Below the pieces are notes generated by a model. It was not told the origin of the DNA. It saw nothing but the letters and a program-made list of their open reading frames with translations, and searched no databases. Shown piece after piece: positions 1,238 through 7,731 of a DNA stretch of 64,000 nucleotides. Source of the stretch: Myxococcales bacterium (GTDB lineage: Bacteria > Myxococcota_A > Polyangia > Polyangiales > Houyiibacteriaceae); assembly GCA_019637115.1 (NCBI GenBank), contig JAHBWH010000006.1, positions 1 through 64,000 on the forward strand, given 5' to 3'. The translations under genes and the position numbers were made by a program. Position 1 is the stretch's first letter, and the number at the start of each line of letters is the position of its first letter.

Positions 1238-1286
1238 TCAGGCCGAGAGCACGACGAGCGCGCGCCCTCTCGTGAGCGCGCGAGCG
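1158..1286. repeat. Tandem copy of the 3' end of the STM4011-like gene
   Basis: Two 52-bp copies, 77 bp apart (1158-1209 and 1235-1286), differ at about two positions. The right copy encodes the last residues and stop of the radical SAM gene (ending RALVVLSA). The left copy lies just beyond that stop and keeps the same stop triplet. Confidence 0.85.
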
Positions 1287-2173
1287 TGCGCGCGCAGCGT
1301 GTCGGCGCCCGCGGCGGACATCGGCCAGCCGTCGGGGATGCGCTCGAGCAGGCCCTCGCCGAAGAGTGGCCGCAGGCCGAGGTGATCCATGTGGACGTAG
1401 CCGATGTGGCAGCCGCAGACGGCCTCGGGGCAGCGGCGAGGGCGGAGCGCGTCGTCGAGCGTCCCGTCGTAGAGGTTCGCGATGATCTCGTCCCGGATGA
1501 AGTGGCACCGGCGCACGTCGCCATCGCCGTCGACGCTGATCACCGTCTCGCCAGCCCCGCACGCGCGGCCGCGGCTCGGGTGCCGGACGGTGTTCACGCG
1601 AAAGAGCGGGTCGACGGCCTCGATCGCTCGGACGTCGTCTTCCACGTAGGGCTCGGCCTTCACCGCGTTGACCCACAGGTAGACCTCGGCGGGGAGCGCG
1701 GCGCGCATGGCCTCGATCTCCGGGATGAACTTCCGAAACCCGACCATGCCGACGCTGTAGCGCACGCCAGCCTCGCTCAGCGCCCGGCAGCGCGCGAGGA
1801 AGCGGCCGCGATCGGTCCACTCCGGATGGTAGGTGCACCAGAGCGCGAGGCGCGTGGGGTCGGCGGCGGCGAGCATCTCGGCCGCGGGGAACGAGAGGTT
1901 CGTCTGCGCCGCGACCCGGCGGACGTGGGGCAGCCGCGAGAGCTCGACCATCGCCTCGCGGTAGGCACGGCGCACGAGCGCCTCGCCCCAGGGCGTGAAG
2001 AGGATGGACACCGGCGCCTCGCGCGCGCGCACCCACGCGACGAAGCGCGCGAGCGCGGCGCGGTCGCGCGCGAGCTCCGCGCGCGACTCCTTGCGCTTGG
2101 CGAAGGGGCAGTAGGCGCAGCCGTAGTTGCAGCTCGAGAGCGGGCCTCGGTAGAGGATGGAGAGCGGGCTCAT
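1238..2173 (-). CDS. STM4011-family radical SAM protein
   Basis: A 311-residue cytoplasmic radical SAM enzyme. The cluster-binding motif is C15-N-Y-G-C19-A-Y-C22, giving a [4Fe-4S] cluster that cleaves S-adenosylmethionine. Further cysteines (ACGAGE, RRCHF, and CPEAVCGCH near residue 255) could hold an auxiliary SPASM-like cluster. The N-terminus LYRGPLSSCNYGCAYCPF and the overall order match the STM4011 family, named after an uncharacterised Salmonella gene; the reaction is unknown. The ATG at 2173 overlaps the stop of a 37-codon frame by ATGA. It is the last gene of the operon running down from 7453. An in-frame extension to 2203 is less likely. Confidence 0.87.
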   Translation of the reverse strand: MSPLSILYRGPLSSCNYGCAYCPFAKRKESRAELARDRAALARFVAWVRAREAPVSILFTPWGEALVRRAYREAMVELSRLPHVRRVAAQTNLSFPAAEMLAAADPTRLALWCTYHPEWTDRGRFLARCRALSEAGVRYSVGMVGFRKFIPEIEAMRAALPAEVYLWVNAVKAEPYVEDDVRAIEAVDPLFRVNTVRHPSRGRACGAGETVISVDGDGDVRRCHFIRDEIIANLYDGTLDDALRPRRCPEAVCGCHIGYVHMDHLGLRPLFGEGLLERIPDGWPMSAAGADTLRAHARALTRGRALVVLSA

Positions 2174-2283
2174 CGCGCCTCCGAGAGAGCGGTACGTATG
2201 CACCGCGCGACGCGAGCGCCTTCACCCTCTGGTTCCGCCGAGGCCGCGAGCTCGAGCGCGTCATGGGTTTCCGCGGGCGTCAT
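2170..2283 (-). CDS. Small 37-residue open frame coupled to both radical SAM genes
   Basis: Starts with ATG overlapping the stop of the STM4012-like gene (ATGA at 2280-2283) and ends with a stop overlapping the ATG of the STM4011-like gene (ATGA at 2170-2173). This exact double 4-nt coupling, with no spare bases, argues for translation. The peptide is acidic at first (MTPAETHDALELAAS), then has a basic segment with one cysteine (ARVARCIRTAL). No family is recognised. It could be a short modification substrate, a subunit or only a coupling leader; the sequence does not decide. It is short enough for standard gene callers to miss. Confidence 0.5.
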   Translation of the reverse strand: MTPAETHDALELAASAEPEGEGARVARCIRTALSEAR

Positions 2284-3611
2284 CGCACGGCGCTCTCGTT
2301 CATCCGCGCGACCACGCGCGCGGACCGGAGCGCGGGGCCGATGCGGTCGCAGCGCTCGAGGCCGAGCTCGGTGAGGGTGACACGCGCGCCCTCGCGCGTG
2401 GCGAAGCGCGCGTCGACGACGGCGCGGAGCTCCGCGAGCTCTTCCAGGGCGTCGCTCCCGAAGCGCGACCGGTAGGCGTCGAGGTCGAGCCCTTCGTCGC
2501 TCAGCAACGAGAGGATGACGAAGCGGCGGCGGCGGTCTTCGTCGTCGAGCACGTAGCCCCAATCGGCCACGGCGTGCTCTGCCTCGGTGCGCGCGGCGTA
2601 GCGCTCGAGGATGCCCCGCACCCCCTTCGCGCCGACGGCGTACGCCGACGCGTAGTGCACGCGCTCGGTGTACGAGCGCGCGCCGCAGCCGAGCCCGACC
2701 ATGCCGTCGGCCTGGCAGCAGTACACCGGGCCCGCGTCGCGGGGGACGTCGACGCGGCGGAACATGCGCATCGAGATCTGCGCGAAGCCCTCGGAGCGCA
2801 GCAGGTCTCGCGCCTCCCGATACATCGCGAGTCGCGCCTCGTCCCACGCCGGGTCGACCGCGGTCGCGCGCTGCTTCTCGCGCTGCTTCCCCAGCACGGT
2901 GAGCGGGCGGACGTAGAGCGGGTAGAGGTAGATCTCGGTCGCGCCGAGCGCGATCACCGCGCGGACCGAGTCGAGCCAAGTCCGCATGGTCTGCTCGGGC
3001 AGGCCGTACATCAGGTCGAGGTTGATCGTCGGGAAGCCGAGCGCCCGCATCCGCTCGACCGCGGCCTCGACCTCGGCGCGCGCTTGGCGCCGGTGCACGC
3101 TCGCGTTCTCGGCGTCGACGAGGCTCTGCACGCCCATGCTCACGCGGTCGATGCCGTGCTCGCGCAAGACCCCGAGCGCGTCCGCCGTCGCGGTCTGCGG
3201 TGAGGTCTCGACCGAGCAGGGGATCGCGTCGAGGTCGGCGCCGAGCGAGCGCGCGAGCCGGAGCACGCGGTCGAGCTGTCGGGGCTCGAGGTAGGTTGGC
3301 GTGCCGCCACCGAGGGCGAAGCGCGCGTACCTCGCGTCCGGCAGCGCCGCCTGCGTCGCCCGCGCCTGTCGCTCGAGCGAGGCGAGGAAGGCCTCGACGC
3401 CGTCGTCCTCGACGCCCGTCACGGTGAAGAGGTTGCAGAAGCCGCAGCGCTGCTCGCAGAAGGGCACGTGGACGTAGAGCGAGAGCGCGTCCCGCTTCTC
3501 CTCCGCCCAGAGCTCGCGGAGCGGGATGGCTGGCTCGATCGCGCGGTACGCGGTCTTGTGCGGGTAGGAGTAGAGGTAGGCCTCGTAGGGGGAGCCGCTC
3601 AGGAGATCCAT
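2280..3611 (-). CDS. STM4012-family radical SAM protein (HemN-like)
   Basis: A 443-residue radical SAM protein of the HemN/HemW-like class. The cluster motif is C52-EQR-C56-GF-C59, after LSLYVHVPF. It is followed by a glycine-rich SAM-binding loop (LGGGTPTYLEP) and the typical VSMGVQSL segment. Family resemblance is to STM4012, always found beside STM4011- and STM4013-type genes; its substrate is not known. I place the start at the ATG before DLLSGSPYEAYLYSYPHKTAYR, which begins the conserved region. In-frame ATG 3650 and GTG 3668 are alternatives with weak ribosome sites. Its stop overlaps the 37-codon frame. Confidence 0.87.
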   Translation of the reverse strand: MDLLSGSPYEAYLYSYPHKTAYRAIEPAIPLRELWAEEKRDALSLYVHVPFCEQRCGFCNLFTVTGVEDDGVEAFLASLERQARATQAALPDARYARFALGGGTPTYLEPRQLDRVLRLARSLGADLDAIPCSVETSPQTATADALGVLREHGIDRVSMGVQSLVDAENASVHRRQARAEVEAAVERMRALGFPTINLDLMYGLPEQTMRTWLDSVRAVIALGATEIYLYPLYVRPLTVLGKQREKQRATAVDPAWDEARLAMYREARDLLRSEGFAQISMRMFRRVDVPRDAGPVYCCQADGMVGLGCGARSYTERVHYASAYAVGAKGVRGILERYAARTEAEHAVADWGYVLDDEDRRRRFVILSLLSDEGLDLDAYRSRFGSDALEELAELRAVVDARFATREGARVTLTELGLERCDRIGPALRSARVVARMNESAVR

Positions 3612-3716
3612 GGGGGGTTCAGCGTGACGCACGGCGGGTCCTCGTTCCATCGTCGTTCCACGGAGCACCCGCGGCCCGCGTGGCCATCGATGATCGGCGC
3701 GCTCGCCTCGCCGCGC

Positions 3717-4997
3717 TCATTCCATCACCGCGACGTAGCGATAGACGTAGGCCGGCAGGGAGTCGTCGCGCTGCGCGGCGACGTCGGCGTTCGGCAGCTG
3801 CGTGGCCACCACCTGCGCGGCCTCGGGCCCGAGGAGGTTGCCGCGCAGGTCGAGGCGCTCGAGGTGGCGCAGGCGCGGGGCGAGCTGCACGAGGGTCGCG
3901 ACGGCGTCGTCGCGCAGCGTCCCGTCCGAGAGGTCGAGGGTGCGAAGAGAGCCGATCAGGCGCCCGCCGGCGACGACCCTCAACATCTCCTCTCCGAGCT
4001 CCGCGTTGCGCAGGCCGAGGTGCACGAGCGAAGGCGGCCAATCAGCGGCGAGGAAGGCGCGGACGTGCCGGGGCGCGAGCCGTGGGTTGTTGGCGAGGCC
4101 GCGGATCGGGTCGAGCGCCTCGGCGTCGTAGCCCGTGGCCGGGTCGTCGACCTCGCCATCGAGCTCGACGTCCTCCACCGCGCAATACGCGAGGCCCCCG
4201 AGTGAGAGGACGAGGCGCTCGAGCTGAGGCAGCTCCGCGGCGACGAGCGCGTCGAGGTCGGCGGGGGTGGTCTCGGCGTCGAGCACCGCGAGCTCGCGCA
4301 GGCGCGGGAACGCGAAGCGCGGGGGGCGCCCGATCGAGCTGCCCTGCACGTGGAGGCGCTCGAGGTCGGGGAGCACCTCCGCGAGCGCGTGGAGGTCCGG
4401 GAAGCGAACGTACGCCGAGGCGGCGACCGGCGTGCCGTGGCCGAACGCGAGCTCCTTCAATGTCCGCGGCGCGCGCTCGAGCGCGCGGATGGCCGCGGGC
4501 CACGGGTAGAGGTGGTTGTCGTCGGCGACGTCGTGGACGAGGAAGCGCTCGGGTAGCGCATCCAAGACGAGCGCCTCGAGGCGCCGCGCGACGGGGCGCG
4601 AGAGGATCGCCTCGACCCGCTCGGCGAGCGCGCGCTCGTGGTCGTGGCGCGCGCGGGGGGCCGCCTCACGGGCGCGCTCGCCGCGCTCGGAGGAGACCAC
4701 GGCGCGCTGCAGGAACCCCGATCGCCACGAGACGGGGTCGACCACGCCCAGGAGCGCTTCGCCGAGCAGCGCGGGGAGGGCCGCCCGCTCTTTGGCGCGC
4801 AGCTCGCCGCGCGTCGGCGCTCGATCGCCGACCGACCCATCGCCGAGCTCGGCCGCGTGCTGCAACGCGATGAGCTCGCCCCAAGGGTGACCATGGGTCT
4901 GGAGCCAGTCGGAGAAGACGAGCAGCGCGTCATCCGACGGGTCGTCGCCCAGGCGTGCGACCTCGGCCGCGATCGCGGCTGGGTCGAGCGCGCTCAC
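3717..4997 (-). CDS. TIGR02996-domain leucine-rich-repeat protein
   Basis: A 426-residue protein. The N-terminus (about 1-50) has the TIGR02996 repeat-companion motif: PSDDALLVFSDWLQTHGHPWGELIALQHA. The rest is built of irregular leucine-rich repeats (LVHLGLRNAEL, LRTLDLSDGTL, LERLDLRGNLLG near the C-terminus), suggesting a protein-protein interaction scaffold. It ends YVYRYVAVME, almost the same as the paralogue at 5963-7453 (FILRYVATME). The GTG start at 4997 overlaps the stop of a 42-codon frame by GTGA. Sitting inside the STM401x-like operon, it may play the role of the LRR protein STM4015. No enzymatic motif is visible. Confidence 0.85.
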   Translation of the reverse strand: MSALDPAAIAAEVARLGDDPSDDALLVFSDWLQTHGHPWGELIALQHAAELGDGSVGDRAPTRGELRAKERAALPALLGEALLGVVDPVSWRSGFLQRAVVSSERGERAREAAPRARHDHERALAERVEAILSRPVARRLEALVLDALPERFLVHDVADDNHLYPWPAAIRALERAPRTLKELAFGHGTPVAASAYVRFPDLHALAEVLPDLERLHVQGSSIGRPPRFAFPRLRELAVLDAETTPADLDALVAAELPQLERLVLSLGGLAYCAVEDVELDGEVDDPATGYDAEALDPIRGLANNPRLAPRHVRAFLAADWPPSLVHLGLRNAELGEEMLRVVAGGRLIGSLRTLDLSDGTLRDDAVATLVQLAPRLRHLERLDLRGNLLGPEAAQVVATQLPNADVAAQRDDSLPAYVYRYVAVME

Positions 4998-5122
4998 GCA
5001 CCCTCGCGGTCGTCGGCGAGGCGGTCGGAGGAGGCCCGATGAGCGGTCGGGGGCGACGAGGCCCCCGCGACGCCACCGTGGGCCGTGAGCGCCGCGATCG
5101 CTGCATGGACCAGCGCGCTCAC
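4994..5122 (-). CDS. Small 42-residue open frame between hydrolase and LRR genes
   Basis: GTG start at 5122 overlaps the stop of the STM4013-like gene, and its stop overlaps the GTG of the LRR gene; both junctions are GTGA. Its first codons (MSALVHAAIAAL) closely copy those of the downstream LRR gene (MSALDPAAIAAE), also at DNA level over about 32 bp. It therefore looks like a leftover of a tandem duplication of that gene's start. The remainder is Ala/Ser/Arg-rich without a known motif. Whether the peptide has a function is open; it keeps translation continuous along the operon. Confidence 0.42.
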   Translation of the reverse strand: MSALVHAAIAALTAHGGVAGASSPPTAHRASSDRLADDREGA

Positions 5123-5952
5123 GTCCCCTCCCCGTCGCGGGCTCGCGCCTCGAAGAAGACCTCGCCGTAGGGGACCGTCCAGACGATCGGGTGGCCGACA
5201 CGATGGCCGACGTAGCCGTCCTCGCCATAGAGGGTGCCGTGGTCGGCGCAGAGCAGGAGCAGCGTCGGGGCGCGGCGCGCGGTGATCGCGTCGACGAGGC
5301 GCGGGAGCTGGGCGTCGACGTAGGTGAGCGCCGCCTCGTGGCTCGCGAGCGAATCCTCGGTCGCGCCGGGCAGGTAGAAGCGGTTGGGTTGGTGGATCGC
5401 GCTGACGTTCACGAAGAGGAAGACGCGCTGGCCGGCGCGTCGCGCGAGGATCGAAGCCGCGAGCTCGAGCTGGTGCTCCGTCGAGCGAGGATCCGTGACG
5501 CCGAGGGCCTCCGACCAATGGGCCTCCGCGAAGAGGTCGGGCAGGACACGACCGAGCGGGTTGCGCTGGTTGAAGAACCCGGTGCCGCCGACGCAGGCGG
5601 TGTGGTAGCCGAGCGCGCGCAGGCCGCTGGGGATGTCCGCGGCGTCCAGCACGCACGTGGCCTCACTCGTGGTCTCGCTGCCCTCGAAGCGCATCGCGAA
5701 GCGGCGCGCGTGGCGGCCGGGCGCGACGGGCGTCGGCAAGAAGCCGGCGAAGAACGCCTGATGCGCCGCGAGCGTGAACGAGGCGGGCGTGTGGCGGCGC
5801 TCCCAGCCGCGCGGGAGGAGCGCGCGGAGCGTAGGGGTGCGCCCCTCTCGCCACGCGCGCTCCGCGACGTCGAAGCGCAGCGTGTCGAGGGTGACGAGCA
5901 CGAGGTCGTGCTCGCCGGCGACGAAGGGCTCCCGGGCCAGGAACGGACGCAC
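5119..5952 (-). CDS. STM4013/SEN3800-family hydrolase (sulfatase/phosphatase-like)
   Basis: A 277-residue protein of the alkaline phosphatase/sulfatase superfamily fold. It shows VTLDTLRFD near the N-terminus (metal-binding Asp), the NVSAIHQPN segment, and LLLCADHGTLYGEDGYVGH followed by GHPIVWTVPY, which supply metal-binding Asp/His residues. No Cys/Ser-x-Pro-x-Arg formylglycine motif is present, so it is probably not a true sulfatase. No signal peptide is seen, so it should be cytoplasmic. It begins with GTG 10 bp after the WGR/LRR gene. In other genomes this family accompanies the two radical SAM proteins; substrate unknown. Confidence 0.85.
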   Translation of the reverse strand: MRPFLAREPFVAGEHDLVLVTLDTLRFDVAERAWREGRTPTLRALLPRGWERRHTPASFTLAAHQAFFAGFLPTPVAPGRHARRFAMRFEGSETTSEATCVLDAADIPSGLRALGYHTACVGGTGFFNQRNPLGRVLPDLFAEAHWSEALGVTDPRSTEHQLELAASILARRAGQRVFLFVNVSAIHQPNRFYLPGATEDSLASHEAALTYVDAQLPRLVDAITARRAPTLLLLCADHGTLYGEDGYVGHRVGHPIVWTVPYGEVFFEARARDGEGT

Positions 5953-5962
5953 GGCGCCCGAC

Positions 5963-7453
5963 TCACTCCATGGTGGCGACGTAGCGCAGGATGAACTCGG
6001 GCACGGCCTCGCCGCGTTGCTTGTCGCATTTCGCGTTCGGGAGCGCCTCCTTGAGGCCCCGGATGGCGGCCTCGGAGAGCACGTTGCGCGACAGGTCGAG
6101 CGTCTTCAGGTGCGCGAAGCGGTCGCGCATGCGGACGAGCGCCTGCGCGCCCGCCTCGTTCAGCGTGCCGCCCGAGAGGTCGAGCGTCTCGAGCTTCGCG
6201 ACGAGGGCGCCCTCCGCGATCGCGCTCAACATCGCGTCGTCGAGCTGCGCGCTCTGCAGGCCGAGGTGTACGAGGGACGAGGGCCACGCCGCGTCGAGGA
6301 AGGCGCGGACGTGCGTCGCGTCGACGTTCGCGTTGTGGTCGTAGACCTCCATCTTTTCGAGATCCGTCGCCGGATACGAAGCTGGGTAGGACGCCTCGTA
6401 GTCGTCGCCGGCGTTCTCGTAGGGGTCATAGAGGTCGTCGAGCGTGCAATACGAGTAGCCGCCGAGGCCGACCGTGAGCCGCTCGAGCTTCGGCAGCGGG
6501 GACTTCGCGACGGTGTCGAGGTCGCTCGGCTCGGTCTCCGCGAAGCGCAACGTGAGCGACTTCAGCTCGGGGAACGAGAGGCGCTCGAGCTCGCCGCGCG
6601 AGGTGCCCTGCGCCTCGATCGTCTCGAGCTTCGGGAGCACGCTCGCGAGCTTCGCGAAGCTCGGGAGCTTCACGTAGGCGGCCGCGGCGGTGGGCGGCGG
6701 GTCACCGAAGAAGAGGTGCTTCAAGCCGGCGGGCGCGCCGGCGAGGGCGTCGAGCGTCTCGGGCCAGGGGTCGATGATGTCCTCGATGGACGTGTCCCAG
6801 TCCCGGTGGGGCGCGAAGCGCGCGGGCTGCGCGTGCAGCGTGAGCTTCGTGAGGCGGCGCGCGGCGGGGAGCGCGAAGAGCACCTTCAGCCGCTCGGCGA
6901 GGACGATCTTCTCGGCCGGGGAGGCGATGATCGCGTCCGTGAGGAAACCGTAGGAGAAGTTGAAGCGTGTCGGGCGGGCGGCGCGCGCGAGCTCGCCGAG
7001 GACCTCGACGCCGGACTCTTGCAGGAGCGCGCGCTCTTCCTTCTCGAGCTCGCCGCGCTTGCTCGCGTTCGGCGCGGTGGCGATCCCGTGGTGCAACGCG
7101 ATGAGCGTGCCCCAAGGGTGGCCCTTCGACTGGAGCCAGTCGGCGAAGACGAGGTAGGCGTCGGGCGAGGGGTCGCGCTCGAGGGCGGCGAGCTGCTCCT
7201 CGAGCGCCGCGCCATCGAGCGAAGCCTTCGGGGCGCTGTCGACGACGACCTCCGCGTAGCCCTTCTTGGTCTTCTCGGCGACGAGCTTGTTCGCGTCCTT
7301 CTCGGCGGCCTCCGGGCTCGCGAAGGACTTCGTCTTCTCTTGGCCGGCCGTGCCGATCTTTCCGTAGCGCACGGTGTGCGTCTTCCCGTCGACCGAGACC
7401 TCCCAGAACTTGCTCGACTTCCCGTCGTCGAACTCGAAGTATCGCTTCTGCAT
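5963..7453 (-). CDS. WGR-domain / TIGR02996 leucine-rich-repeat protein
   Basis: A 496-residue protein, first gene of the STM401x-like operon. Residues 1-70 form a WGR domain (KFWEVSVDGKTHTVRYGKIG), a fold known to touch nucleic acid in PARPs and found fused to many bacterial modules. A TIGR02996 domain follows (about 85-130: YLVFADWLQSKGHPWGTLIALHHG), then leucine-rich repeats to the end. The ATG at 7453 has a strong GGAGG site 6 bp upstream. An in-frame extension to 7624 is rejected because it reads through a decayed copy of the neighbouring protease gene's 3' end. It is paralogous to the LRR gene at 3717-4997 but keeps the WGR domain. Confidence 0.88.
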   Translation of the reverse strand: MQKRYFEFDDGKSSKFWEVSVDGKTHTVRYGKIGTAGQEKTKSFASPEAAEKDANKLVAEKTKKGYAEVVVDSAPKASLDGAALEEQLAALERDPSPDAYLVFADWLQSKGHPWGTLIALHHGIATAPNASKRGELEKEERALLQESGVEVLGELARAARPTRFNFSYGFLTDAIIASPAEKIVLAERLKVLFALPAARRLTKLTLHAQPARFAPHRDWDTSIEDIIDPWPETLDALAGAPAGLKHLFFGDPPPTAAAAYVKLPSFAKLASVLPKLETIEAQGTSRGELERLSFPELKSLTLRFAETEPSDLDTVAKSPLPKLERLTVGLGGYSYCTLDDLYDPYENAGDDYEASYPASYPATDLEKMEVYDHNANVDATHVRAFLDAAWPSSLVHLGLQSAQLDDAMLSAIAEGALVAKLETLDLSGGTLNEAGAQALVRMRDRFAHLKTLDLSRNVLSEAAIRGLKEALPNAKCDKQRGEAVPEFILRYVATME

Positions 7454-7541: not shown

Positions 7542-7731
7542 CGGGAGCTCGTGCCGGCGACGAGGCCGAGGGCGAGGGCGAGCGCGCTCGAGGACTCGTC
7601 GAGCTCCGAGCGCGAGCGGAGCACGAGCGGAGGGTGAGCGGGGACTGGGGACTGTACTCAGAAGCTCGTGCCGGCGACGAAGCCGAGGGCGAGGTCGCTC
7701 GAAGACTCGTCGAGCTCCGAGTGCAAGCGGG
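7542..7731. repeat. Tandem copy of the 3' end of the protease gene
   Basis: The last roughly 70 bp of the protease gene (7658-7731) recur at about 7542-7622, with a 9-bp insertion and scattered changes. Both encode SELDESSS followed by a LxxxAGTS ending. The copy lies between the protease stop and the start of the WGR/LRR gene, so it occupies that operon's presumed promoter region. Confidence 0.85.

Follow-up and report, generated by a model that had tools for sequence, protein, structure and literature searches.

Leucine-rich-repeat proteins of the split STM4011–STM4015 radical SAM system of a Myxococcales bacterium: candidate carriers or targets with a conserved C-terminal glutamate

A stretch of 64,000 nucleotides from a Myxococcales bacterium (contig JAHBWH010000006.1, positions 1 to 64,000; hereafter, the window) carries, between positions 1238 and 7453 of its minus strand, a run of genes for two radical S-adenosylmethionine (SAM) enzymes, a hydrolase, and two leucine-rich-repeat (LRR) proteins, which is of the STM4011–STM4015 type. 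The LRR proteins correspond to family STM4015, the members of which share a short C-terminal tail with a near-invariant last glutamate. The reading favored here, with a probability of about 0.5, is that these proteins are carriers or targets that are loaded at the C-terminal Glu and then remodeled by the enzymes of the operon. STM4014, the ATP-grasp protein that would perform the loading, is encoded elsewhere in the genome, on a different contig.

A conserved glutamate tail on STM4015 proteins

Profiles for all five families were built from fetched loci, 100 of which entered the searches for tails and neighboring genes. The C-terminus of STM4015 reads R-Y-[VITA]-x-[VI]-[SG]-E and follows a variable acidic linker. 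When the C-termini of 22 representatives (mutually below about 50% identity) were aligned from the right, Glu occupied position −1 in 21, Arg position −7 in 20, and Tyr position −6 in 18 of them, while positions −30 to −8 of the same proteins were variable and acidic. The Tyr is swapped for Phe, His, Met, Ser, or Asn in several proteins, with the Glu being kept. The strict form of the tail terminated 122 of the 29,335 six-frame open reading frames (ORFs; a background that includes non-genes) of the 100 loci; 119 of these are STM4015, and the remaining three look like STM4015 fragments or frameshifts in the same loci.

In the window, the locus and the two tails were placed as follows (scores are those of the NCBIfam models):

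1238..2173, minus strand: STM4011-family radical SAM enzyme (NF038073, 378.5 bits; cut-off 200)
2280..3611, minus strand, alternative GTG start at 3632: STM4012-family HemN-like radical SAM enzyme (NF006067, 554 bits; cut-off 380)
3717..4997, minus strand: STM4015-like LRR protein, copy b (NF038076, 98.5 bits, below the cut-off of 275)
3717..3740, minus strand: tail codons of copy b, R-Y-V-A-V-M-E and stop (from sequence, pattern match, and tail statistics)
5119..5952, minus strand: STM4013-family (STM4013/SEN3800) hydrolase of the alkaline-phosphatase superfamily (NF038075, 378 bits; cut-off 250)
5963..7453, minus strand: WGR-LRR protein, second STM4015-like copy (NF038076, 103.6 bits, below the cut-off of 275)
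5963..5986, minus strand: tail codons of the WGR-LRR protein, R-Y-V-A-T-M-E and stop (from sequence)

The two proteins thus end in YRYVAVME (copy b) and LRYVATME (WGR-LRR protein). Both carry Met at −2 with the overall tail kept, and the latter departs from the strict pattern by Thr at −3. Across the window's genome, the DNA pattern of the tail plus stop codon matched only two STM4015 genes; the other two matches read TGG instead of a stop.

Paralogues located away from the enzymes keep the tail as well. A genome of the same family as that of the window (G188) has nine STM4015 genes in tandem on a single contig, with further copies dispersed at a distance from the enzymes. Eight of its tail-bearing paralogues are ∼39% identical in their cores, 11% and 13% in two stretches preceding the tail, and 52% in the last six residues, a contrast that is descriptive and not an unbiased test, as the eight were chosen for carrying the tail. 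The strict tail was present in 17 of all 27 STM4015 ORFs from the search that yielded these paralogues, and in ten more genomes it was present in 17 of 22 (with two more being close), mostly on contigs without radical SAM genes. Another locus (L077) contains a tandem array of six copies.

Some of these paralogues have further features. Within the array of nine (L213; G188:C53:37000-54500), which lies far from radical SAM genes, several tails converge on YTxVGE, and at least one paralogue has WGR-like and TIGR02996 matches at its N-terminus. A BRCT-like domain is inserted in the LRR region of STM4015 at L047:12537-13847 (Pfam BRCT, 53 bits) and at L046:2487-3761.

In the AlphaFold2 model of copy b, the LRR core, including the part adjoining the tail, mostly has a predicted local distance difference test score (pLDDT) above 90, and the last ∼16 residues have 51–56. 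The tail of copy b is thus conserved without being confidently packed, which is what one would expect of a site read or modified by another protein.

STM4014 is encoded on a second contig

No STM4014 gene is present at the window locus itself, from which the earlier note on this DNA had concluded that the ATP-grasp partner is missing and that a different composition works here. Both claims fail: STM4014 was found over its cut-off in the window's genome at C52:6386-7495 (339 bits; cut-off 175), and its translation carries the family's conserved GVD...EANAFGDLLP motif. The gene is placed divergently from a third STM4015 gene (∼157 bits, under the STM4015 cut-off of 275), which has a TIGR02996 domain over cut-off. 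The system is therefore split between contigs C391 (that of the window) and C52 and does not form one contiguous operon; the genome has the same parts in a split rather than a reduced operon.

Among 284 Myxococcota genomes, STM4011 and STM4014 were over cut-off in exactly the same 18. STM4015 (E ≤ 1e-30) was found in 19, namely, 17 of the 18, G190, in which STM4011 and STM4014 occur only as sub-cut-off fragments, and the orphan G048. In the latter, an STM4015 gene at a contig edge (L233; G048:C43:1-4000) ends in THVDVGE, and neither STM4011 nor STM4014 was detected in that genome. The genomes are drafts, and some are fragmented. When 12 genomes were rechecked, most of them picked because the fetched STM4011 locus had no STM4014, the gene was over cut-off in all 12, in several of them on a contig other than that of the fetched locus. 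Contiguity is not strictly required for the system, given that split loci occur in other genomes, too. Where it is split, STM4014 mostly adjoins an STM4015. The distances of STM4011, STM4012, and STM4014 correlate over 61–63 genomes (r 0.64–0.79; shuffles ≤ 0.23), uncorrected for species history. A reduced system functioning without an ATP-grasp enzyme, for which the gene's absence from the window locus would speak, is contradicted by the gene on C52 and by the perfect co-occurrence (18/18), and is almost certainly not what this genome encodes.

The closest folds to the model of STM4014 (pLDDT 92) are those of ligases acting on the C-termini of proteins. Its top Foldseek match was 3VPB, ArgX in complex with the carrier LysW (1.4e-12), and in VIA-align the top nine rows were LysX, ArgX, and RimK (Z 20.5–21.9), with D-Ala-D-Ala ligase coming next within 2 Z units. 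Searched against solved structures, the STM4014 profile placed RimK first, with LysX among seven matches (E 5e-4 to 8e-3); Pfam returned RimK-like and other ATP-grasp models, and MptN was the second NCBIfam match. LysX joins aminoadipate to the γ-carboxyl of the C-terminal Glu of LysW, the tail of which is EDWGE (PMC10433800), and RimK adds glutamates at the C-terminus of ribosomal protein S6 (PMC10092738). A partner with a near-invariant last Glu fits this pattern of acting on protein C-termini.

Family assignment of the window locus

Read from 7453 down to 1238, the minus-strand order is WGR-LRR, STM4013, LRR copy b, STM4012, and STM4011, with short gaps between the genes. The locus is of the STM4011–STM4015 type because all three enzymes, as the earlier note had proposed, score far over their NCBIfam cut-offs, none of them falling into an unrelated family, and because STM4015 is the best NCBIfam family for both LRR proteins, though under cut-off. 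Pfam domains at the locus are radical SAM and HemN_C (both in the STM4012 protein), sulfatase superfamily, and WGR. The LRR proteins had been described as TIGR02996/LRR proteins, one with a WGR domain: LRR and the WGR domain (N-terminal in the 5963–7453 protein; PF05406, 74 bits) hold, and TIGR02996 stays below its cut-off in both (25.4 and 22.9 bits versus 29.05). They had been listed next to the enzymes without an STM4015 label. Judged by sequence, they are two copies of the STM4015 component that belongs to this locus rather than additional parts; clear but divergent STM4015 homologues, they are labeled STM4015-like here because they fall under the curated cut-off. The two are 41% identical to each other; an iterated STM4015 profile recovered copy b at 331 bits and the three STM4015 copies of the genome at 312–346 bits. 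The closest solved structure of the WGR-LRR protein by sequence is the WGR+LRR protein 2RA8 (E 5.5e-31).

A 42-residue ORF (4994–5122, minus strand) overlaps both the STM4013 stop and the LRR start, with GTGA at both ends, and sits in an imperfect duplication of the LRR gene start (4966–5036 and 5091–5161, 72%). As it has no clear homologue and lies inside this local duplication, a small precursor peptide in the gap between the STM4013 and LRR genes was rejected. Local direct repeats are frequent throughout the window: a second copy of the 3′ end of STM4011 lies directly downstream of that gene (1157–1209 and 1234–1286; 53 nucleotides, 96%), and a comparable 3′-end repeat follows the serine-protease gene (7567–7619 and 7678–7730; 87%).

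Distribution and gene neighborhoods

One scan returned at least 579 candidate STM4011–STM4015 stretches from several phyla, and 80 further loci were taken from Myxococcota, Actinomycetota, Planctomycetota, Chloroflexota, Cyanobacteria, Bacteroidota, Alphaproteobacteria, and others. The cluster is conserved far outside Myxococcota. No peptidase recurs in the neighborhoods, the gaps of the related loci showed no recurrent small ORF, and no further gene resembling a substrate is common to all neighborhoods.

Two neighbors occur in part of the loci. A HAD-family phosphatase lies between STM4014 and STM4013, or just before STM4013 (L047:10870-11553, L050:450-1127, and L054:10747-11424); being seen in several lineages only, it was discarded as a general component. 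Near 36 of the 100 loci (for example, L075:1732-2799), there is a gene for an LRR protein that ends with a DUF6745 domain; these loci are from Actinomycetota, Planctomycetota, Chloroflexota, and Alphaproteobacteria, and nearly all such proteins end in [EQ]T. It was not retained as a universal sixth gene, given this frequency and its detection in 0 of 30 Myxococcota genomes, though no control matched in that search. PADLOC gave only short partial matches (PDC-M51A and WGR_XIII) in two of six proteins; with no match covering the proteins, a known anti-phage defense system was rejected.

A proposed route: ligation at the tail, then radical SAM chemistry

STM4011 has the radical SAM motif CxxxCxxC and five invariant C-terminal Cys (C203, C221, C246, C251, and C253; alignment A1) in a SPASM/twitch-like pattern, and its C-terminal half weakly matches the SPASM region of SkfB (E 0.07). 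In STM4013, D13, T50, D227, and H228 are invariant (alignment A3, 17 proteins); Thr takes the place of the nucleophile (SFTxAxH), where sulfatases carry Cys or Ser (CxPxR/SxPxR), and a DHG motif is likewise invariant. A pair of formylglycine sulfatase and its maturating enzyme (anSME) was rejected on account of the invariant Thr. The closest solved relatives of STM4013 are nucleotide pyrophosphatases/phosphodiesterases (best match) and sulfatases; because of this match and the Thr, a phosphoester or nucleotide group would be a more natural substrate than sulfate.

From these observations, we infer the tail as the site of ligation, the LRR protein as the substrate, and the following order of steps. 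Each STM4015 protein would present a flexible tail, aromatic-V-x-V-[S/G]-E-COOH. STM4014, as a LysX/RimK-like ATP-grasp ligase, would activate the C-terminal Glu and join an amine or amino acid to it. HemN-like STM4012 and SPASM-like STM4011 would then modify the tethered group or the tail, whereupon STM4013, as a Thr-nucleophile hydrolase, would take off a phosphate- or nucleotide-type group or release the product, a step that may be shared by the HAD phosphatase in some genomes.

What speaks for loading at the Glu is the conservation of the tail, its retention by unlinked paralogues, its low pLDDT, the tandem arrays, the fold of STM4014, the co-occurrence of the latter with STM4011, and its adjacency to STM4015; the proposed ligation step as such rests on fold and tail conservation. 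Several points weigh on the other side. Carriers of the LysW type are small, and an LRR protein of 300–500 residues would be an unusual one. The profile match of STM4014 to RimK/LysX is weak (E about 5e-4), and D-Ala-D-Ala ligase (Ddl), with a VIA-align Z of 20.2, comes close to RimK/LysX, so that the fold does not settle the acceptor class. The distance correlation (r 0.64–0.79) carries no correction for species history. Several STM4015-like proteins lack the tail or extend past it (L042, L089, L093, and some G188 paralogues), which also means that the tail does not simply come with the fold. Finally, the tail could be a docking signal instead of a reaction site.

Alternative roles of the tail

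The last point leads to the idea, put forward as a possibility in the earlier note, that the LRR proteins hold a separate target. On this reading, the tail would be a tag by which one of the enzymes recruits STM4015, with the actual substrate being presented on the LRR surface. LRR proteins commonly act as binding scaffolds, the WGR and BRCT domains of some copies hint at binding functions, and V-x-V could add a β-strand to a partner. A docking motif, however, need not stop at the carboxylate, whereas in 21 of the 22 representatives the chain ends with the Glu, and no other gene resembling a substrate is shared by all neighborhoods. We consider this arrangement unlikely; with their conserved flexible Glu tail, the LRR proteins themselves are more likely the substrate or carrier. 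The general idea of a modification pathway, voiced in the same note, is supported.

The tail could also be a core peptide, with STM4015 as a giant precursor resembling those of ribosomally synthesized and post-translationally modified peptides (RiPPs). The radical SAM enzymes would crosslink or oxidize the tail Tyr and Glu, as in the maturation of pyrroloquinoline quinone (PQQ) or mycofactocin, and a short product would be cut off. The five invariant SPASM/twitch-like Cys of STM4011, the frequent joint presence of Tyr and Glu in the tail, and the tandem, precursor-like paralogues are in line with this. Against it stand the replacement of the Tyr in several proteins while the Glu stays, the lack of a recurring peptidase in the neighborhoods, and the bodies of STM4015, which are large, folded, and diverse (WGR, BRCT, and TIGR02996) and not leader-like; altogether, a core peptide is distinctly improbable. 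It is harder still to credit a small-molecule pathway, in which STM4014 would be a free amino-acid or cofactor ligase (MptN- or Ddl-like) and STM4015 a regulator using its tail for inhibition or sensing. Ddl and other small-molecule ligases do score nearly as high as RimK/LysX, and MptN is the second NCBIfam match, but this would leave unexplained both the conservation of the tail in unlinked STM4015 arrays, the rest of which diverges, and the pairing of STM4014 with STM4015 in split operons.

Relation to known systems and implications

All five families of the Salmonella STM4011–STM4015 set (NCBIfam) are present in the window's genome, the three enzymes over cut-off in the window and STM4014 over cut-off on C52. 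The difference lies in the distribution over two contigs and in three divergent, sub-cut-off STM4015 copies, one with WGR. Of solved structures, PDB 2RA8 (Bacteroides fragilis, Q64V53_BACFR) is the best relative of both window LRR proteins and has the same WGR+LRR architecture. LysW/LysX (ArgW/ArgX) offers the nearest ATP-grasp fold and a partner tail ending in Glu (EDWGE in LysW, RYVAVSE-like in STM4015), whereas the partner here is an LRR protein of 300–500 residues instead of a small zinc protein, and radical SAM enzymes stand where the LysZ/Y/J/K-type enzymes do. As its partner is not a small zinc-binding LysW homologue, the STM4015 system may function in the manner of LysW without belonging to that class. 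With RimK and S6 (RpsF), STM4014 shares the ATP-grasp fold and, as proposed, a protein C-terminus as acceptor; it differs in that this acceptor would be an LRR protein and in its co-occurrence with STM4011 in the genomes tested. SPASM-type RiPP maturases (PqqE, MftC, and SkfB) likewise combine a radical SAM core with a Cys-rich C-terminal region, as does STM4011, the locus of which, unlike theirs, has no recurring small precursor peptide, the proposed substrate tail being borne by a folded LRR protein.

Very many genomes carry annotated members of the five families, yet no functional paper on these families was found in the literature searched (by STM401x names and broader terms), in agreement with the earlier note, which had called the locus type uncharacterized. 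Together they may, as we tentatively suggest, represent a widespread class of protein-tethered biosynthesis or modification, in which families of LRR proteins (up to nine per tandem array) would be loaded at an invariant C-terminal Glu by one shared ATP-grasp enzyme and the adduct remodeled by two radical SAM enzymes. The Glu tail sharpens what was a vague modification operon, as it predicts which protein, which residue, and which enzyme are involved. If true, the principle of LysW and RimK would also cover folded LRR proteins and radical SAM chemistry.

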